This document shows, in pieces, positions 6,705 through 16,286 of a stretch of 29,980 bases of DNA. Position numbers and translations under genes: made by a program. Source of the DNA: a virus; the IMG/VR virus record IMGVR_UViG_3300022929_000130, positions 1-29,980 of that record; one strand, 5' to 3'. The notes under the pieces are model-generated. The model saw only the letters and a program-made list of their open reading frames with translations, did no database searches and was not told the DNA's origin. How positions within the stretch are numbered: the first letter of the stretch is position 1; the number at the start of each line of letters is the position of its first letter.

Positions 6705-7094
6705 ATGAGCCTCTCAAACAGTTTTGAAACACACACTTTAAAATACTTGCTGACTTCAGATTCAGTAACACGACCGACTGCTTGGTACGTGGCGCTTTGC
6801 ACCACAGATCCCACGGATTCAGCACTCGGCACCGAAGTTTCTGGCGGCGGCTATGCCCGTCAGTCAGTTGCCTTTACTGTGTCAGGCGACAACGCTTCCA
6901 ACACCTCGGCAATCGAGTTTCCCGAAGCAACGGCAAACTATGGCACTGTAGTAGCAGTAATGATCATGCCAGCATCTAGCGGCGGGTCAGCTTCAGACAT
7001 GATCGTACACGCCCAGTTAACTGCCGATAAAACTATTTCCACTGGCGATATTTTCAGAATCCCCGCGGGCGATCTCGACATCAACATTGAGTAA
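6705..7094 (+). CDS. Tail fibre-type protein, single GYARQ domain
   Basis: 129 residues made of one beta-rich domain widespread in phage appendage genes. It starts with an N-terminal helix (FETHTLKYLL), then AWYVALCTTDPTD, the hallmark GTEVSGGGYARQSVAF, SNTSAIEFPEATANYGTV and a closing TGDIFRIPAGDLDI strand. The same domain occurs twice in the next gene, so the locus carries three copies. Ribosome site AGGAG precedes ATG. A role in the distal tail or as a baseplate/fibre component is inferred from the family and from its place at the head of the fibre cassette. Confidence 0.75.
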   Translation: MSLSNSFETHTLKYLLTSDSVTRPTAWYVALCTTDPTDSALGTEVSGGGYARQSVAFTVSGDNASNTSAIEFPEATANYGTVVAVMIMPASSGGSASDMIVHAQLTADKTISTGDIFRIPAGDLDINIE

Positions 7095-7106
7095 TAGGAG
7101 CGGCTG

Positions 7107-8303
7107 ATGGCTATTCTTAGCGATAATCTAGAGCTTGCCCTGATCAAGCATCTTTTTAAAAAGGCTAATTTTTTAATCCCTGCAGGGATGTGGTTGGGTC
7201 TACACACCGGAGATCCGCTTGATGGGAATACAGGCTCGAATGAGATCTCTGGGAATGGCTATGCCCGTGTGCAGGTTGTTGATAACGACCATAATGCAAA
7301 TACCAGTTCTTCTTCGGGTATGTTCAGCAAGTTTGGCTTCGATACCAATGACAATATAACCAATTCTTCTGCCATCGATTTTGCTGAAGCAACCGGCAGT
7401 TGGGGTACGGTTACACACTGGTCACTTTGGAGCCATGTCACGGAAACTGGATCTAGTTATTTCTTAATGTCTGGAGCTTTAAGCAGCGGCGTAGGAGTGG
7501 CTTCAGGTGATCAATTCAGGATTTCTTCAGGTCAGTTTGATATTACCTTCCCAAATCGTTGGGGTGTGGGATCAGGCACGGTAACGATAGCCGAAGACAC
7601 GAGCTATACTTTGTACCAAACTACAACTGAATGGCGCAGACAGCTTGCCCGTAGATTAGGCTTTATAAATGAGCCGTGGGGGCCGTTTCACGGCGATGGT
7701 TACGATTGGGCAAGTACTTATGATCCGGGGTCATCCTCTGAAAGGATTATTTCAGCAAATCGAAACAGAGCATGGCCCAATATCTCTCTTCCGTATTATG
7801 ACTTCACTTTCCAATCTGTAAATCAATCAACAGGTTCTGCTTCAACTACCACTGTTTCTGATAGTCGATTATATCTTGGTTTATATCGAAGTGACCCCGG
7901 AAGTAATGCCACGTCAGTAGACGCTTCCGCATCAGGTTCGACAGGAGAGTTTGATGGAAATGGCTATGCACGACAGGAAATTATCGGCCCTAGTACAAAC
8001 GTATTTGGAACCCCAACCACTGATGGTAGCGGCGTAACATCAATTACAAACACCTCTGCAATTGCTTTTCCAGAAGCCACAGGTAATTGGACGGGATCAG
8101 CAACGCACTGGGGCATCTATCGTGGAACATTTGGAGGCACTGGAACTAATGGTTCTGCAGCCCAGTACGATAGCAACGGCAGTGCTACCTACCGTAAGTC
8201 TAAAGACCCATTAATTACTGGCGCTTTGACCACTTCTCGCAGTGTAAACAGCGGAGATATACTCCGATTTGGCATCGGGGATTTTGTCATCAAATTAGAT
8301 TAA
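7107..8303 (+). CDS. Tail fibre-type protein with two GYAR domains
   Basis: 398 residues. Copy one covers about 1-150 (LALIKHLF, MWLGLHTGDPLDG, GNGYARVQVV, SAIDFAEATGSWGTVTHW, GDQFRISSGQFDITF). A linker of about 80 residues follows with no recognisable family but many aromatic residues (residues 150-235, including PWGPFHGDGYDWASTYDPG). Copy two covers about 240-398 (RLYLGLYRSDPGS, GNGYARQEII, SAIAFPEATGNWTGSATHWGIY, GDILRFGIGDFVIKLD). The layout is most simply a fusion of duplicated copies of the 129-residue gene just upstream. Gap of 12 bp, ribosome site AGGAG. Likely part of the host-recognition appendage. The aromatic linker could be a glycan-binding insertion, but that is a guess. Confidence 0.72.
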   Translation: MAILSDNLELALIKHLFKKANFLIPAGMWLGLHTGDPLDGNTGSNEISGNGYARVQVVDNDHNANTSSSSGMFSKFGFDTNDNITNSSAIDFAEATGSWGTVTHWSLWSHVTETGSSYFLMSGALSSGVGVASGDQFRISSGQFDITFPNRWGVGSGTVTIAEDTSYTLYQTTTEWRRQLARRLGFINEPWGPFHGDGYDWASTYDPGSSSERIISANRNRAWPNISLPYYDFTFQSVNQSTGSASTTTVSDSRLYLGLYRSDPGSNATSVDASASGSTGEFDGNGYARQEIIGPSTNVFGTPTTDGSGVTSITNTSAIAFPEATGNWTGSATHWGIYRGTFGGTGTNGSAAQYDSNGSATYRKSKDPLITGALTTSRSVNSGDILRFGIGDFVIKLD

Positions 8304-8312
8304 GGAACCCAC

Positions 8313-9230
8313 ATGGCTCGGTTCGCAGATCGTGTAAAGGTTTCGACCTCTACAACAGGCACAGGCACGGTTACGCTAGGCTCTGCGGAGACTGGTTATC
8401 AAACCGTGCCTTCTTCTTTGGATGGTCACACAGTACGGCTTGTAATTGAGGATACCGGCGGCGCATGGGAGGTATCTACAGGTGTATATACGCATTCGGG
8501 TATTACTCTTTCCCGCACGTTAACGAGTTCAAGCACGGGCAGTTTGTTAAACCTGTCTGGCAATGCCAAAGTCTTTATCAGTGCTTCTGCAGATGATCTT
8601 GATCTGCTTTATGCTGACATTACGGTTACTGTATCGGGCGGCAACTACCTGATTGATGGTACTGCTAATCAGACGATTACTTTAGTGCCTTCTGTTACCT
8701 ACCGCTTTGATGTTTCTGATAGCACAAATGCTAGTCACCCGCTACGCTTCAGCACAACCTCAGACGGCACTCACAACAGCGGTTCTCAGTTCACCACGGG
8801 CATCACTGAAGTAGGCACACAAGGCACTGCAGGAGCCTATATCGAGGTAAAACTAGAGCAGGATTGCCCAGCGCTTTATTACTACTGTGCAAACCACTCA
8901 GGCATGGGCGGTGCAATCGTTGTAAGACCGCCCGTGGTTGGAACTGACGCCTTAGCCTATGATGCCAACCTTCAAAGTTTTGTATCTGCGTTTACGCTTC
9001 CAACCTCAGACGGTTCAGCCGACCAACTTTTAAAAACTAATGGTTCGGGAACTCTGTCCTTCGTGGATGGCGGCGGTGCAGGGTTTGGAACAGTAAACGT
9101 GGCCTCACGCACTCTTACGACTGACACCACTGTAGGAGCCACAGAAAGCGCTCTCACGGTTGGGCCGCTTACCATTGCCAGCGGTGTAACTTTAACTGTT
9201 GCGGCTGGGGGAAGGCACGTAATCCTATGA
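8313..9230 (+). CDS. Tail fibre protein with plastocyanin-like (cupredoxin) domain
   Basis: 305 residues in three parts. Residues 1-95 resemble the N-terminal attachment domain of many phage fibres (MARFADRVKVSTSTTGTGTV, then WEVSTGVYTHSGITLSRT). Residues about 100-207 look like a cupredoxin: beta strands, then H142 in SHPLRFST and a C-terminal loop YYYCANHSGMGG with C192, H195 and M198. This is the His...Cys-x2-His-x2-Met order of type 1 copper ligands. Residues 208-305 are a fibre-like repeat region with Gly/Thr. I associate the same domain with virion proteins of marine cyanophages. Whether copper is bound is untested. The gene overlaps the next by 4 bp (TATGA region), so it belongs to the fibre operon. 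Confidence 0.75.
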   Translation: MARFADRVKVSTSTTGTGTVTLGSAETGYQTVPSSLDGHTVRLVIEDTGGAWEVSTGVYTHSGITLSRTLTSSSTGSLLNLSGNAKVFISASADDLDLLYADITVTVSGGNYLIDGTANQTITLVPSVTYRFDVSDSTNASHPLRFSTTSDGTHNSGSQFTTGITEVGTQGTAGAYIEVKLEQDCPALYYYCANHSGMGGAIVVRPPVVGTDALAYDANLQSFVSAFTLPTSDGSADQLLKTNGSGTLSFVDGGGAGFGTVNVASRTLTTDTTVGATESALTVGPLTIASGVTLTVAAGGRHVIL

Positions 9231-10381
9231 CCGAAATTCGTGTAGACACAATCGTTGATGCCGCTGGAACAGGCGCACCCGACTTTTCTACTGCTCCAAC
9301 CGTGGGCGGTGTTGCGCTGGGCAGTCTAGCTACTTCCAGCTTTACTAGCAGTGGTACTGAGCCATCAAGCCCTAGTGATGGTGCAGTTTGGTGGGATACT
9401 ACAAACAGCGAATTGAAGATCTATGCAAACAGTGCGTGGCAAACGGTTACTTTGGGAGCTTCACCACCCGCTTTACCTTCGCATTACGGCGATAGGGGAA
9501 TACAGGGGCCGGGATATAGCGCAGTTGAGTATTCAGGTACTAACAATATAGGGAATACGATTGATTATTGGGATTTTACCACCCTTGGCAATGCTTCTGA
9601 CTTTGGAGATGATGCACATTACATTTCTGGTTGCTCTTGTACGGCGGGCGCTGGACGAGGATTTATTATCGGTGGAAATGAAAACGGTACTCTGATTGCA
9701 AATATTCGGACAATTCTTACTGCCACTTTAGGTAATGCAAGTCAGTATGGTTCTATAGGAGTAGCTAAACAAGACACTTGTGCAGACAATGATGCAAACC
9801 GAATGTTTGTTTCTGGATTCACAAGCACCGATAACCGTATTGAGTATAAAAGCATAGAATCCTCTGGAAACACTGCTGATTTTGGAGACATTACAGACAA
9901 CGATTATCAAGCAATGGGAGCGGCTTGTGATGGCACTAGAGGCTTCTTTATGGGCGGGAACGGCAACAATGGTAGAACTAATCGAATTTGTTCTATTGTA
10001 GTACAAACAACGGGTAACGCTACTGACTGGGGTGATCTTGTAATCTCTTGTCTGAATACAAAAGCGTGTGGCAATGATACGAGGGTTTTGCACTGTAGAG
10101 GTAGAAACTCAAGTTTAACTGATTTTTCTGAAATATATTATTTCGACACATCTTCTGCAGGTAATGCATCTAGCTTTGGAGATATGGGTGATAATACCTA
10201 TTTGGGTGGGATGTCGTGTAATGCAACCAGAGCCTGTTATTCTGGCGGTACTGGGTCTTGGCCTAATAAAAGAGATCAGATTGAATATGTCACAATAGAC
10301 ACCCTTGGTAACGGAGCCGATTTTGGTGATCTAACCAAAGAACGGGGTAATACTGATTCAATGTCGGGGGCCGCTGCTTAA
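9227..10381 (+). CDS. Propeller-repeat tail fibre protein, paralogue 1
   Basis: 384 residues. Residues 1-85 are an attachment module starting TEIRVDTIVDAAGTGAPDF, with a TSSGTEPSSPSDGAVWWDT segment also found in other phage fibres. The rest is six repeats of about 48 residues following the pattern GG...IEY-V-I-TxGNAxDFGDL...C..TRGFF, here more diverged than in the two following paralogues. Six repeats of this length with a GG strand recall kelch or galactose-oxidase-like propellers, so a six-bladed beta-propeller is inferred. Probable job: receptor or glycan binding at the tip of an appendage. ATG overlaps the previous stop (ATGA), and its own TAA overlaps the next ATG. Cysteines are frequent at the end of each repeat. 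Confidence 0.75.
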   Translation: MTEIRVDTIVDAAGTGAPDFSTAPTVGGVALGSLATSSFTSSGTEPSSPSDGAVWWDTTNSELKIYANSAWQTVTLGASPPALPSHYGDRGIQGPGYSAVEYSGTNNIGNTIDYWDFTTLGNASDFGDDAHYISGCSCTAGAGRGFIIGGNENGTLIANIRTILTATLGNASQYGSIGVAKQDTCADNDANRMFVSGFTSTDNRIEYKSIESSGNTADFGDITDNDYQAMGAACDGTRGFFMGGNGNNGRTNRICSIVVQTTGNATDWGDLVISCLNTKACGNDTRVLHCRGRNSSLTDFSEIYYFDTSSAGNASSFGDMGDNTYLGGMSCNATRACYSGGTGSWPNKRDQIEYVTIDTLGNGADFGDLTKERGNTDSMSGAAA

Positions 10382-11520
10382 TGTCAGAGATTACAGTAGA
10401 TAAAATTAACAATTCAGCTGGCACAGGCGCTGCTAATTTCACCTACGGGATTAAGGTTGGTGGAGTGGCACAATCCATTGGCTCTGGTACATTTACTAGT
10501 AGTGACACTGAGCCATCAAGCCCTAGTGATGGTGATATTTGGTATCAACCAACGCTTAGGTATTTGGACTATCGGGCTGGGGGTGAGTGGAAGCGAGTTA
10601 TTGGCAGTGGAACGTCAAACCCTCCCGCATATTTTGGCGATAGGATGCTTGTAGCGGGAGGTGGTATCGATATCAGCCCGTACCGAACAAGTGCAATTCG
10701 TTACATAGATTTGACTGGTTCAGGTGGATCAACCAACTTTGGATCTTTAACAAGTAGTAGAAATGGCGCTCACGGCGCAACAGGCGACACTAGAGGAATA
10801 TTCGCAGGGGGTGTAATAAGCAATTACATTAACAACATCGAGTATGTCACCATTCCGACAACTGGAAATTCTACTGATTTTGGTGATCTAACAGAGATAA
10901 TGATGGCTTCTTCTGCATCCGATGGTACTTACGCAATCTTTGCGTTGGGCGATGGTGCAAACGCATATAATGGCTCGATTTCACAAATTACAATAGCAAC
11001 TACTGGAAACGCTACTTCTTGGAGCGGAACGCTAACTACCAATAGGGGTAATGGTAGTGGCGCTTCTGACGGTACTAAAGGTTTCTTTTTTGGCGGGTAC
11101 GAAACGGGTTATGTTAATACAATAGATTATGTGACTATCGCTACCGATGCTAATGCTACGGATTGGGGCGATTTGATTGTAGCTAGAAATGGCAGCGGCG
11201 ACTCTGCTTGTGGAACTAACAGCCGTGTTCTCACTGCGGGTGGTCAGATTTCGGGTAGTAAAACCGATGCTATTGAATACATTAACCCCGCTAGTGCTAG
11301 CAACGCTTATGACTTTGGGAATCTGACTTCTCAAATGGGAATGACTACTTCTGCTTGTAACAGCACTAAAGCTTGTTGGGTGGGCGGCACTTATACCAAT
11401 GGCGTTAAAACCGATACGCAGCAAATAGTCACCATAGATACAGCGGGAAACGCCTCGGCTTTTGGAACTTATTCGATTGCGTTGCAGAGTGGGGGATCTT
11501 GTTCGGGGGCCGCTTCATAA
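10381..11520 (+). CDS. Propeller-repeat tail fibre protein, paralogue 2
   Basis: 379 residues, built like its upstream neighbour: an attachment module (residues 1-80, SEITVDKINNSAGTGAANF, then TEPSSPSDGDIWYQP) and six repeats of about 48 residues. Repeat hallmarks include FAGGVISNYINNIEYVTI, TGNSTDFGDLT, ASDGTKGFFFGGY and ACNSTKACWVGG. It is much closer to paralogue 3 than to paralogue 1, with stretches of identical DNA (11043-11100 equals 12158-12215). The N-terminal part shares a 28-bp identical stretch with paralogue 1 (10507-10534 equals 9356-9383). Starts at the A of the previous TAA. Predicted to be a six-bladed propeller host-binding protein. Function inferred. Confidence 0.75.
   Translation: MSEITVDKINNSAGTGAANFTYGIKVGGVAQSIGSGTFTSSDTEPSSPSDGDIWYQPTLRYLDYRAGGEWKRVIGSGTSNPPAYFGDRMLVAGGGIDISPYRTSAIRYIDLTGSGGSTNFGSLTSSRNGAHGATGDTRGIFAGGVISNYINNIEYVTIPTTGNSTDFGDLTEIMMASSASDGTYAIFALGDGANAYNGSISQITIATTGNATSWSGTLTTNRGNGSGASDGTKGFFFGGYETGYVNTIDYVTIATDANATDWGDLIVARNGSGDSACGTNSRVLTAGGQISGSKTDAIEYINPASASNAYDFGNLTSQMGMTTSACNSTKACWVGGTYTNGVKTDTQQIVTIDTAGNASAFGTYSIALQSGGSCSGAAS
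11043..11100 (+). repeat. 58-bp identical repeat shared with 12158-12215
   Basis: These 58 bases in paralogue 2 recur without a change at 12158-12215 in paralogue 3, both coding the end of repeat 3 and start of repeat 4 (RGNGSGASDGTKGFFFGGY). The flanking DNA differs much more. A second shared block is 10799-10830 and 11914-11945 (32 identical bases, then almost identical to the end of the strand). Such patches point to recent duplication with gene conversion. Confidence 0.85.
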
Positions 11521-12635
11521 TGAGTACATTAAAAGTAAATACCATTAAAGATAACGGCACAGCGATTGACCTTGAAAACGGTATTAAGATTGCTGGTGCC
11601 TCACCTACACAAAATTACACTGCCAGTGGAACTGAGCCTAGTAGCGGGAATGCAAACGGCGACTATTGGTGGGATACTGGCAATGACCAACTTTATCAGT
11701 ATTGGGATAGCGAGTTTAGAGCGATTACTACTGTACCCCCACCGCCACCAGTTTCGCATATTGGCGATAGGATGGTCGTAGCGGGTGGTACCAGTTCTCA
11801 AACATCTGCAATTCGCTACATAGATTTAACTGGTTCTGGTAACTCATCCTCATTTGGATCTTTAACAAGTGCTAGAAATGGAGTCTCAGGCGCATCAAGT
11901 GGTAGTCGAGGGGTATTCGCAGGGGGTGTAATAAGCAATTACATTGACAACATCGAGTATGTTACAATCTCTACGCCGGGAAATTCTACCGATTTTGGCA
12001 ATCTGACAGCTATTCAACAGGTTTCTTCTGCATCTGATGGCACTACCGCAATCTTTGCATTGTGGGATGGTGCAAGCACATATCACGGCTTTATATCAAA
12101 AATTACAATAGCAACTACTGGAAACGCTGCTAATTGGGACTACTTCATAACTCAGACTAGGGGTAATGGTAGTGGCGCTTCTGACGGTACTAAAGGTTTC
12201 TTTTTTGGCGGGTACGCCTCTACAGGTCGTGTAAATACTATAGATTATGTAACGATTGCCACACAGTCTAGTGCAATTGACTGGGGGGATCTTTCTTCAG
12301 TTAGGGATTCACAAGGACAAATGGCTTGTGGAACTAGCAGTCGTGTTCTTCACGCTGGTGGTCACAATGGAACTACTTATACTAATACTATCGAATACCT
12401 TAATCCCGCTAGTGCTGGAAACACTACTGACTTTGGTGATCTGACTGTAGGAATGAGGTTTGGCTCTTCTGCTTGTAACAGTACTAAAGCTTGTTGGGCT
12501 GGTGGTGGATCAACGTCAGGGATAGTGAACACTCAACAAACAGTCACTATAGATACCACTGGGAATGCCACGACTTTTGGCACTTACAATGCGGCGTTGC
12601 AGAGTATGGGGGCTTTATCGGGGTTCCCTTCGTAA
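11520..12635 (+). CDS. Propeller-repeat tail fibre protein, paralogue 3
   Basis: 371 residues from ATG 11520, which overlaps the previous TAA. An in-frame ATG at 11499 would add seven residues from inside the previous gene and break the family's N-terminal pattern, so I reject it. The attachment module is STLKVNTIKDNGTAIDLENG, followed by a proline stretch PPPPPVS. Six propeller repeats follow (RYIDLTGSGNSSSFGSL, NIEYVTISTPGNSTDFGNL, KITIATTGNAANW, TIDYVTIATQSSAIDWGDL, TIEYLNPASAGNTTDFGDL, TVTIDTTGNATTFGTY). The most similar sequence in the window is paralogue 2. Likely an alternative or additional receptor-binding fibre. Whether all three are in one virion is unknown. Confidence 0.75.
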   Translation: MSTLKVNTIKDNGTAIDLENGIKIAGASPTQNYTASGTEPSSGNANGDYWWDTGNDQLYQYWDSEFRAITTVPPPPPVSHIGDRMVVAGGTSSQTSAIRYIDLTGSGNSSSFGSLTSARNGVSGASSGSRGVFAGGVISNYIDNIEYVTISTPGNSTDFGNLTAIQQVSSASDGTTAIFALWDGASTYHGFISKITIATTGNAANWDYFITQTRGNGSGASDGTKGFFFGGYASTGRVNTIDYVTIATQSSAIDWGDLSSVRDSQGQMACGTSSRVLHAGGHNGTTYTNTIEYLNPASAGNTTDFGDLTVGMRFGSSACNSTKACWAGGGSTSGIVNTQQTVTIDTTGNATTFGTYNAALQSMGALSGFPS

Positions 12636-12665
12636 TTACTAGACTAAAAACTTCAAGGAAAATTT

Positions 12666-13496
12666 ATGACTAATATCGTCACGAAACCCATCACGTTTTC
12701 GCTGCCTATTGAGGCATCTGAAAACATTAATCAGGTAGCGGCGGCTAGGGTTGCTGAAAAATTGCCAGAAATAGATCAGGCCACACGAGCCTTTGATCGT
12801 CAGAACTCTCAAACGACATTGAGCTTAATGAGCCTCACGATGCTTAACGGGCATTCTCCGATGCGGATGCTTCGTCAGGTGGCTGCAGAGGTTGAAACTC
12901 GTAAGATGGCTCTGAATGAAGCGCAAGTCAGCCACGCTGAGTGCCGTGAAGAAATATTAGAATTAGAAGGCCAAGACGATATCGTATCAGAGGCCAAGTT
13001 GCGTATGAAGCGCCACGCTTTAATGTCGCTAGAGCATAAAATTAATGGCTCCATTAAAGATATTGCTACGCTGTGTGACGCCTACGACAATCTTAAAGAA
13101 AAACACGGTATTGATGAATGGGATGAGGTTTCCTTCGAAGCTGAAGAAAAGCGGCATCACGTTAGACGGGCCTTTGAGCTTATGTACCGCAATTTGTTGG
13201 ATGGGGGTCGAGCCTCAACTTCTACAATCGAATATATGCAGCAATACGGTGTACATCCACAGGTCGGTTTTACTGAGGTGAATGGCTATTTGCAGGTGTG
13301 TGGTCAACGCATTGGACAAGGCGAATTGCTGCACTCAAACGATCTTGAAGATTTCTTGGATGCAATGGCTGAAAAGTATCACAAAAACGTCGATGCTACT
13401 GCCGAAAGGATTTTTGGAAAAGCTGATTTTGTAAATCCAGAGTATATGATGAAGCTCGAAAAGCCAAAAGGGGATGAAAATGTTTCTGAAGTATAA
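12666..13496 (+). CDS. Unidentified helical phage protein
   Basis: 276 residues, not recognised with confidence. Residues 1-45 form an N-terminal segment; residues 45-160 are helical and charged with coiled-coil potential (RQVAAEVETRKMALNEAQVS and onward). Around 165-205 is a conserved-looking helix (VRRAFELMYRNLLDGGRAST, then EYMQQYGVHPQVG). The C-terminal part contains EDFLDAMAEKYHKNVDATAERI. No signal peptide or membrane segment. It sits between the propeller fibres and the repeat fibre, so a fibre-assembly or virion role is possible. Ribosome site AAGGAAA lies 7 nt before ATG. It overlaps the next small gene by 17-23 bp depending on the start chosen there. Confidence 0.7.
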   Translation: MTNIVTKPITFSLPIEASENINQVAAARVAEKLPEIDQATRAFDRQNSQTTLSLMSLTMLNGHSPMRMLRQVAAEVETRKMALNEAQVSHAECREEILELEGQDDIVSEAKLRMKRHALMSLEHKINGSIKDIATLCDAYDNLKEKHGIDEWDEVSFEAEEKRHHVRRAFELMYRNLLDGGRASTSTIEYMQQYGVHPQVGFTEVNGYLQVCGQRIGQGELLHSNDLEDFLDAMAEKYHKNVDATAERIFGKADFVNPEYMMKLEKPKGDENVSEV

Positions 13497-13815: not shown

Positions 13816-13826
13816 AAGGAACCTAA

Positions 13827-16286
13827 ATGCTCGGCTTTAGCCCCCTCGCAGCAGCACCGCTTTCTGCTCTCGACGCTAACATCGTTGAGGTAGCAGCCAG
13901 TGCGTCTATTGCCGCTTCTACAGCGGCTTCTGCGGTTGAGGTTAGAGAGGCTAGTGCTGGTGCTAGTGTCGCCTCTAGCGGTGTTGTAGAGGCTAAGAGG
14001 GTCGCTGTTTCTAGTGCTAGTGCTAGTATCGCCTCTAGCGGCTCTGTAGAGGCTAAGAGGGTCGCTGTTTCCGATGTCGCCACTACGGCTTCATCTACAA
14101 CCAGTATCGATGTAATTAGAGTTCGTACCGCCGATGCGGCTGCTTCAATCCCTGTATCGTCCTCAATCACCTCTGAGGGTGTTACTCTTGCGGCAGCAAC
14201 TACATCAGTAAATTCAACGTCAGCACTTTCAGCGGTACGGGTGGCTACGGCAGACGCCACCACCACGGTGGCAATAAGTTCAACTGTTGCCGGTGAGGAA
14301 TCCACGGTTGTAATTGCAGCGGCCTCAGCGTCTTGTGCTTCCACATCTTCGATTGCTGCAGTTACAGTAAAATCTAGTTCTGCCACAGCGTCTTGTGCGA
14401 TTACCACAGGTGCAATTTCTAAACGAGTACGAAACTCGAATATTGTGGCTTCGGTCACAACTGTTATCGCAGACGCAGTCAATAAAGTTCGCCTTGGCAG
14501 ACCAAGCACAAATATCACTGCCGTAAGCACCGTTGATTATCAGCGCATTATAAATACAGCCGCTGCGGCTTCTATTGCTGCAACCACTACAAGTACTGCA
14601 GCGCTTAAATTACGTGCGGCTCCAACAACATCTATTGCTTCAACGGCAACTCTGAACGCCGCTCAATCTTCTCAGATCGCTACAGATACCGGCCTAGACA
14701 CCACGGCTTCTGTAGTTGGGCAACTTGCTGTCAGTGCTGAGACAGACACGGAACTCGGCACAGATGCCACCGTTGTAGGCAAAAGAAGTATTGGTGTTGA
14801 AACTGAGACAGTTTTAAGCACTGATGCAGCGGTCGTAGGCTCCAGAAGCGTGGGCCTCGAAACTGAAACAAGTTTTGGCACCACGGCTTCAGTTGTAGGT
14901 TCAAAAGCCACTGACGCTGAGACAGATACAACTTACTCGACAACAGCAAGTGTGACGGGCCGCTTAAAAGTAATAGAAGCAGCCGCATCCACTTCTATAG
15001 CTGCCACCAGCGATGCCGTTGCCCAAATACTTATAGATGGCAGTGCAACAGCTTCCGCTTCTACCTCTACGTCAATTTCATTCGAGCGCATCCGTACCGC
15101 TAATATTGCGGCAAACGCTCAAACCACTACTGCGATTGCTGCCGTGCGGGTTATAACACCTGACATTACAGCTTCCATAAATTTTGCTACATCTGCCGAT
15201 ATTGCTCGGATCATTAAAGCTGCCGCAAATACAAATATCGCAACACAAGCGACTATTTTAAGTGAAGAATTTAGAGCGGCTAACACGGTAACCAGCTACA
15301 GCTTTGTTGGTTCAGTAACTGCAACTACGGGTACTAATGTTGGCGCAGACAATACTTACGAATTTGCTGGGGTCTTAGATGCGGGATTAGGCGCAGATAT
15401 TGCCGCCGATACGACTTATAGCTTTACCGGCTTTTTAGACGCAGGTTTAGGCGCAGATATTGCCGCTGATACGACCTACAGCTTCGTTGCAAGCTTGGAT
15501 GCGAGTAAAGGCAGAGTTGCACAAACCGATACGACCTACAGCATCACGGCTGCAGCGGTTGGCACACTTGCAGAAGACATTCAAAGCGAGACAAATCTAG
15601 TATTTGCAGCTACGGTTACTGGCTCTATCCCAGAAAACTCCGAAGCTGATGAAACGTATACATTTGCTTCCGTAGTTACAGGCGCAATAGCTGAACGTGT
15701 TACCACTGATTTGGCTGTATCGGCTACGGTAGATCCTGAAGTAATACGTCTAGGAAGAACCTCTACCAATATACAATCGTCTGCAGAAATTGATGCAGAG
15801 CGAGTATCGACATCACTTATTTCAGCAACGATCTCCTGCACTGCTCCTGTAGCTGCTCAATTAGTTGCCCAGCCGCAAGTATCCGCTGAAGTTGAAAGCT
15901 CTGTCGTTGTTTCGTTTGATCGTATTAGAAAAGCTACTGCAGCGACTGATATATCATCAACCACCGCTATCGATGGTGATTCAGTTGCAGACGGTAGGCC
16001 GTCTACTAATATCGGGGTTACTACTCAAGCCAATCCCGAAGGCGTATTCCAGAGTGGTGCTACTGTTACTATCACCAGCGTAGGCCGGTCTAATTCTAGT
16101 TTAACCTTAACTGGTACTATTAGTAGTACTCTTAATAGCCCCATTGTGAATGCCGAAGGCGCTCAAAACATAACTACTAGCGTGATTGAGCCGCCATTTA
16201 CTTCAAGAAGTTCAGATCTAAATGTGTCGCCGTTTGCGACTACCTCAACTTCTACTCCAAGCAGCCCGTTTAGAAACGCAGCTTAA
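13827..16286 (+). CDS. Giant 20-residue-repeat fibre protein
   Basis: 819 residues, dominated by Ala, Ser, Thr and Val, with almost no aromatic residues outside one section. From about residue 20 to 740 it is built of consecutive 20-residue units. Three unit styles follow each other: ASIASSGSVEAKRVAV-type (residues about 40-280), ETxTxLxTDAxVVGxRSxGx-type (about 290-375) and DTTYSFTGFLDAGLGADIAA-type (about 490-630), with mixed units between and RLGRPSTNI or variants appearing three times. A constant 20-residue period with alternating small residues suggests a beta-solenoid or fibrous beta-helix shaft. The last 70 residues are a Ser/Thr/Pro-rich non-repeat cap. Ribosome site AAAAGGAA precedes ATG. 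Probably a long tail fibre or appendage shaft; function inferred. Confidence 0.75.
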   Translation: MLGFSPLAAAPLSALDANIVEVAASASIAASTAASAVEVREASAGASVASSGVVEAKRVAVSSASASIASSGSVEAKRVAVSDVATTASSTTSIDVIRVRTADAAASIPVSSSITSEGVTLAAATTSVNSTSALSAVRVATADATTTVAISSTVAGEESTVVIAAASASCASTSSIAAVTVKSSSATASCAITTGAISKRVRNSNIVASVTTVIADAVNKVRLGRPSTNITAVSTVDYQRIINTAAAASIAATTTSTAALKLRAAPTTSIASTATLNAAQSSQIATDTGLDTTASVVGQLAVSAETDTELGTDATVVGKRSIGVETETVLSTDAAVVGSRSVGLETETSFGTTASVVGSKATDAETDTTYSTTASVTGRLKVIEAAASTSIAATSDAVAQILIDGSATASASTSTSISFERIRTANIAANAQTTTAIAAVRVITPDITASINFATSADIARIIKAAANTNIATQATILSEEFRAANTVTSYSFVGSVTATTGTNVGADNTYEFAGVLDAGLGADIAADTTYSFTGFLDAGLGADIAADTTYSFVASLDASKGRVAQTDTTYSITAAAVGTLAEDIQSETNLVFAATVTGSIPENSEADETYTFASVVTGAIAERVTTDLAVSATVDPEVIRLGRTSTNIQSSAEIDAERVSTSLISATISCTAPVAAQLVAQPQVSAEVESSVVVSFDRIRKATAATDISSTTAIDGDSVADGRPSTNIGVTTQANPEGVFQSGATVTITSVGRSNSSLTLTGTISSTLNSPIVNAEGAQNITTSVIEPPFTSRSSDLNVSPFATTSTSTPSSPFRNAA
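13951..14070 (+). repeat. Tandem 60-bp repeat, two units
   Basis: 13951-14010 and 14011-14070 differ at 5 of 60 positions by my count and encode two near-identical 20-residue units (GVVEAKRVAV and GSVEAKRVAV endings). This is the least diverged pair in the gene and marks a recent in-frame duplication of one repeat unit. Confidence 0.85.
15361..15540 (+). repeat. Tandem 60-bp repeat, three units
   Basis: Three consecutive 60-bp units (15361-15420, 15421-15480, 15481-15540). The first two share GCGCAGATATTGCCGC and GATACGAC. The third keeps only the GATACGACCTACAGC end and the start of the unit. They encode LDAGLGADIAADTTYSF-type units. Same period as the other repeats in this gene but a different unit sequence. 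Confidence 0.8.

Follow-up and report, generated by a model that had tools for sequence, protein, structure and literature searches.

Organization of the propeller gene array

The window, that is, the whole stretch of DNA analysed here, is a 29,980-bp IMG/VR virus fragment that comes from the structural gene region of a tailed phage. The gene for the major head protein is followed by two Gp80-type fibre genes, another fibre gene, and three propeller genes, downstream of which are situated an SU10-type adaptor, a tail-fibre gene, and a lysozyme; the neighbors of the array (Gp80 fibre, tail fibre, and SU10 adaptor) are fibre and structural genes. At 6705–8303, the Gp80-type fibre gene is duplicated, and its second copy contains three Gp80 stretches. 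The gene preceding the array (8313–9230) has a 3′ end that is approximately 86–88% conserved in the relatives and a 5′ part at approximately 69%. The open reading frame at 13827–16286 encodes 819 residues rich in Ala, Ser, and Thr with internal repeats, and a 235-residue open frame is located on the opposite strand (13823–14530).

The three propeller genes (9227–10381, 10381–11520, and 11520–12635) are arranged head to tail, their stop and start codons overlapping. The start of gene 3 is the ATG at 11520, and the longest open reading frame would start at the TTG at 11499. Each gene encodes an N-terminal module (N-module) of about 85 residues and a predicted six-bladed kelch propeller head (Table 1).

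Table 1. Features of the propeller gene array and their positions in the window.
Feature	Position	Strand	Evidence or remark
Gene 1 N-module, putative slot class A anchor	9227–9487	+	DNA identity 81–97% within the slot, at most 58% to other slots
28-bp block, common with 10507–10534, in the N-modules	9356–9383	+	Weak
Gene 1 head, predicted six-bladed kelch propeller	9488–10378	+	AlphaFold2 model, structure match
Gene 1/2 stop/start overlap TAATG, 3′ head border	10379–10383	+	Sequence
Gene 2 N-module, putative slot class B anchor	10381–10635	+	Slot clade 97/94; holds the 28-bp block 10507–10534
Gene 2 head, predicted six-bladed kelch propeller of the slot-3 lineage	10636–11517	+	pLDDT about 97, Z 39.0; clade 100/100
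32-bp block, common with 11914–11945	10799–10830	+	Largely also in L010_3
Gene conversion tract of 59 bp in gene 2	11043–11101	+	p = 0.0012 and 0.001; normally hypervariable d–a loop
Gene 2/3 stop/start overlap TAATG	11518–11522	+	Sequence
Gene 3 N-module, putative slot class C anchor	11520–11762	+	Slot clade 100/99; 90% to L004
Gene 3 head, predicted kelch propeller	11763–12632	+	Identical to the L004 slot-3 head; Pfam Kelch_1 20.9 bits
Probable donor of the 59-bp patch, gene 3	12158–12216	+	Sequence also present in the L004 slot-3 head
Conserved neighbor ORF, 276 aa, locus marker in relatives	12666–13496	+	80 loci

Relatives carrying the same array are found among viral contigs, and in most of the 80 loci marked by the conserved neighbor ORF the propeller genes lie directly upstream of it. 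Complete arrays contain one to nine genes, three being the most frequent number (35/80 loci). The propeller family has at least 549 relatives in one scan and appears widespread in uncultured marine phages. A search of 50,697 phage records gave no match to gene 3 at 1e-5, and nothing significant was obtained for the window genes by tblastn against deposited phages or by profile search against PDB sequences. The distant Synechococcus phage S-SKS1 (L180) is the sole deposited phage with a significant match, found via a longer relative, and 44 places across its two records match the repeat. Two arrays (L100 and L101) are located on contigs of a Porticoccaceae MAG and a Pirellulales MAG, which are either host hints or binned phage DNA. 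Single-gene arrays and fused genes of 600–1360 residues also exist, so three slots are not universal. Probably fused heads in this size range are encoded at L138:3889–7971, L139:4060–7971, L055:5071–8783, and L101:7335–13326, and the long propeller genes of L138 and L139 adjoin the same neighbor ORF as in the window.

Predicted fold of the heads

The AlphaFold2 model of gene 2, built with 117 related sequences, has a mean pLDDT of 90 and approximately 97 over residues 86–379. Foldseek and VIA-align match this model to the kelch propellers KLHL12, Keap1, and the SAKe6 designs with an E of about 1e-18, a Z of 39.0, and an rmsd of 1.8 over 278 residues. The gene 1 head is only about one third identical, yet it has the same predicted fold as gene 2; its AlphaFold2 model aligns with a SAKe6 kelch design at a VIA Z of 39.2 (278 residues, rmsd 1.9) and with Keap1 at a Z of 38. 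The Foldseek E values for the models of genes 1 and 2 range from 1e-17 to 1e-18. Gene 3 shares 58% identity with gene 2 and barely exceeds the cut-off of Pfam Kelch_1 (20.1 bits), which gives no match at this cut-off in genes 1 and 2.

In these models, the heads of genes 1 and 2 are predicted to form a closed kelch-type ring of six blades, each with four strands. An earlier note, made from the DNA letters of the window, had proposed a six-bladed propeller, and structure prediction of both genes agrees with it (Z of about 39). The six repeats of about 48 residues that it described correspond to six blades, although only five are complete units (approximately 47–50 residues), the sixth being divided, with one part at either end of the head. 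The ring is closed by the C-terminal strands together with the strand at residues 88–92, just after the GDR motif, which provides the one missing from the incomplete last repeat, as indicated by the sequence register and the model. The first 85 or so residues are mostly of low model confidence, with a small β region in gene 1.

The variable face of the propeller

In a propeller of this geometry, the b–c and d–a loops are situated on one face and the a–b and c–d turns on the opposite face. Across 117 sequences, the mean entropy is 3.10 bits in the b–c/d–a loops versus 1.41 in the c–d/a–b turns (p = 1e-21). Within the clade to which the window belongs, the difference has the same sign (2.32 versus 1.15). 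Meanwhile, pN/pS in close pairs amounts to 0.71–0.80 in the b–c/d–a loops versus 0.26–0.44 across the remaining propeller. With the faces assigned via the predicted fold, the variation is concentrated on one propeller face. In Keap1, the ligand-binding face is the one with the b–c and d–a loops.

N-modules form three slot classes

The N-modules share 78–97% DNA identity when they occupy the same slot and no more than 58% when they occupy different slots, and in the N-module tree each slot forms one clade, that of slot 1 being weakly supported. Among 29 non-redundant three-gene arrays, the nearest N-module is in the same slot in 84/87 cases. Leave-one-phage-out class calls are correct in 67/69 cases, and both misses come from L120, which has the order A-C-B. 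Judged from these sequences, the N-modules constitute three slot classes, A, B, and C, conserved across phages. The earlier claim that each gene has its own N-terminal module holds for all three genes, and identity, clades, and nearest-neighbor counts make each module position-specific. The N-modules have no match in Pfam and PHROG at the thresholds used, and their role as the attachment or docking part is a putative one.

The classes are also represented as evenly as the number of genes in an array permits. A:B:C is 1:1:1 in 23/23 classified three-gene arrays and 2:2:2 in six six-gene arrays with two gene orders (AABBCC and AABCBC); classified arrays of four genes have 1:2:1, those of five have 2:2:1 or 1:2:2, and those of seven have 2:3:2. 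Such evenness is only suggestive, because the arrays are related. It is conceivable, though unlikely, that the three classes associate in one hetero-assembly, such as a fibre with a single subunit of each class; three different propellers per appendage would then provide combinatorial specificity.

Heads do not follow the slots

In contrast to the N-modules, the nearest propeller is in the same slot in only 47/87 cases in the same 29 arrays; as about one third would be expected by chance, vertical inheritance has not been erased. AU tests reject every one of the slots as a propeller clade, with p = 3e-6, 2e-7, and 1e-4. Within the window, genes 2 and 3 are 43% identical in the N-module and 73% in the head, with a step at the head border, and the gene 2 head falls inside the slot-3 clade with a support of 100/100. 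Most of the similarity between genes 2 and 3 therefore arises because the gene 2 head belongs to the slot-3 lineage.

Heads of high identity are also found in different slots, where the cross-slot similarity was taken as single long matches and summed BLAST pieces, inflated by the repeats, were set aside. The slot-2 head of L010 shares 90% DNA identity with the slot-1 head of L014 and 84% with that of L007, while the N-modules share approximately 51%. The shared segment starts at the GDR codons, and in the comparison with L014 it stops at the stop/start overlap; the similarity of a head moved between slots reaches as far as the TAATG. In the six-gene arrays L026 and L111, the N-modules correspond slot for slot at 85–93%, whereas the heads of L026 slots 4 and 5 are 91% identical to those of L111 slots 3 and 4, displaced by one slot, and the other heads are mostly at background (56–70%). 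The codons at the head border follow GGN-GAT-(AGR/CGN) with varying synonymous codons, and a conserved DNA linker beyond the GDR codons was ruled out on this basis, leaving only short homology. In L037 (6877–9122) and L049 (7834–10166), two B-class N-modules occur in swapped order between flanks that are approximately 95% identical, and whole genes, not heads alone, may accordingly move.

Replacement of heads between close relatives is seen in the comparison of the window with L004. The two have zero mismatches over 7544–9246 and 11754–12638, and the stretch from 9385 to 11753 is divergent. Head 1 has background identity (41%), head 2 has 61%, and head 3 is identical, while N-modules 2 and 3 share approximately 90%. 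The exchange borders lie in N-module 1 and at the head 3 border, and one or several exchanges would account for the pattern.

The examples from L026, L007, and L004 come from one contig each, and similar N-modules of 250 bp are in general hazardous for short-read assembly. Chimeric metagenome assembly, in which heads have been paired with the wrong N-modules, is nevertheless very improbable, since independent contigs are concordant. The L010 array is represented by four contigs from different samples (L009–L012) with at most one difference in approximately 3.4 kb, and L005/L006 have two differences, L008/L013 one, and L111/L114 nine in 6.7 kb. Furthermore, the slot pattern is repeated across the 29 arrays.

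Identical blocks and short conversion

Blocks identical between the genes had been read in the earlier note as recombination within the array and as a way of varying the host-binding face. The block shared by genes 2 and 3, given there as 58 bp, has exact coordinates and a true length of 59 bp (11043–11101 and 12158–12216). The 32-bp and 28-bp blocks are exact and maximal as described, and an additional, unlisted block of 29 bp lies at 10985 and 12100.

The 59-bp run exceeds what is obtained from shuffles that preserve the amino-acid match pattern in place (p = 0.0012). In a three-way test with L010_3, the slot-3 allele of a relative, which is otherwise closer to gene 3 (W3), it corresponds to a run of six sites at which genes 2 and 3 agree (p = 0.001). 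Its sequence is present in slot 3 of both the window (W3) and L004 (L004_3) and absent from the other slot-2 alleles examined, so the transfer probably ran from slot 3 to slot 2, and gene conversion is supported for this block. The 28-bp block is located in the N-module, outside the propeller. Its significance depends on the slot-2 allele taken as reference: p is 0.0008–0.002 for some, but a nonsignificant 0.2–0.3 for L004_2, the nearest, and for L014_2, and the block was rejected as strong gene conversion. The 32-bp block was rejected as a recent conversion, since most of it also occurs in L010_3, which points to shared ancestry of the slot-3 head lineage. The longest within-array blocks at other loci were likewise set aside as evidence, being mostly DNA overlap of neighboring ORF calls.

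Plain duplication followed by divergence, without recombination in the array and with slow evolution as the reason for the identical patches, would fit the inherited 32-bp block, much of the similarity between genes 2 and 3, and the 28-bp block. However, the 59-bp block spans a loop that usually ranks with the most variable parts and exceeds the amino-acid-preserving shuffles, the N-module and head trees conflict (AU p ≤ 1e-4), and heads of 90–91% identity occupy different slots; with the contigs at hand already contradicting it, this explanation is improbable. Recombination patches within the array are retained for the 59-bp block of genes 2 and 3, while most of the similarity between these genes reflects one whole-head relationship. 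Gene conversion is the lesser component beside the exchange of whole heads between phages and between slots.

Recombination functions

The earlier note had also suggested variation without a reverse transcriptase. In agreement with this, RVT_1 is absent from the 30-kb window fragment and from eight relatives, several of these records being fragments and four of the relatives being 48–60 kb long, whereas control genomes gave the expected match. A serine resolvase or invertase was found in none of ten records, several of them fragments, and the array has no notable inverted repeats. A tyrosine recombinase/integrase is encoded in one relative (G004), which is what a site-specific machinery (retroelement or invertase) generating the variation could draw on; given the lack of RVT_1, of the serine enzymes in these records, and of inverted repeats at the array, such a machinery is most improbable.

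RecT and YqaJ were looked for and not found. The single-strand annealing protein ERF is encoded in two of the ten records, G006 (L026) and G005 (L114, a near-identical sister of L111), and is absent from the window fragment. Its presence, an association only, fits relaxed homologous recombination, and the enzymes that would act on the array are presumed to be of this kind.

Discussion

With a probability of about 0.75, the array serves receptor binding through several slots and owes its diversity to the recombination of head cassettes. Each N-module (A, B, or C) probably docks its protein at a virion position specific to that module, and the propeller probably binds the cell surface with the b–c/d–a face. 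The N-module stays with its slot, and the propeller acts as an interchangeable cassette. Whole heads are replaced, presumably by homologous or short-homology recombination when phages co-infect a cell; crossovers would fall in the conserved N-modules, at the gene end, and at the GDR codons that open the propeller. In addition, heads shift from slot to slot, and short tracts convert between the heads of one array. Such movement of heads probably changes what the virus can bind.

The place of display bears on this interpretation. The heads could sit on the capsid, because the Gp80-like genes upstream match a PHROG that carries the label head protein, and one kelch protein of jumbo phage CBB is, in the description available from PMC5259590, a virion protein of unknown role. 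The heads would then be capsid decorations, or bind a target other than a receptor, and their variability would come from another pressure. The hypervariability of one face, the recent head replacement in near-identical phages, and the fibre neighborhood fit receptor binding better, and a role in capsid decoration or non-receptor binding is judged unlikely.

The closest known organization is the branched tail-spike complex of Ackermannviridae, in which the conserved N-ends of TSP1–TSP4 fix their place and the receptor-binding ends are exchangeable (PMC11414711). The exchange proceeds through homologous recombination, which takes place between phages and, in the laboratory, also from one tsp gene into another, tsp5 into tsp4 (PMC11414711). 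Both systems have clustered genes, slot-specific N-ends, and exchanged C-ends, receptor binding being putative for the propellers. However, Ackermannviridae use trimeric tailspike heads and XD/TD anchors, whereas the arrays have one predicted kelch-propeller family and N-modules without a Pfam or PHROG match. Furthermore, the arrays reach six to nine genes, and the same head occurs in different slots in natural phages.

T-even and other phages have tail-fibre mosaics, reportedly described by Haggard-Ljungquist (1992) and Tetart (1998). In such mosaics one adhesin locus is exchanged, unlike the parallel slots with slot-specific anchors of the present arrays. As far as the account in PMC11414711 extends, conserved motifs in these mosaics are the crossover points that swap adhesin specificity. 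Metaviromic islands are comparable in that host-recognition genes distinguish marine phages that are otherwise near-identical and the tail fibre has a conserved N-end and a variable C-end, according to the portion of PMC3909814 consulted, which describes neither the slot-plus-cassette structure nor kelch arrays. Jumbo phages likewise encode kelch propellers, for example CBB_550/552/554, one of which is confirmed in the virion, and the part of PMC5259590 concerned contains neither anchor classes nor head exchange in their description. The design is most likely a variation on the known organization of an anchor with an exchangeable head; kelch heads on three slot classes that are displaced between slots in nature are undescribed in the literature searched, which covered few subscription papers.

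Some phages, on this evidence, can separate the location of a receptor-binding protein, set by a fixed plug per slot, from its possible target, set by a mobile head. The separation would be achieved without dedicated mutation machinery and can be read from natural sequences alone, and the head border would offer a natural unit for studying host-range change in the sea.
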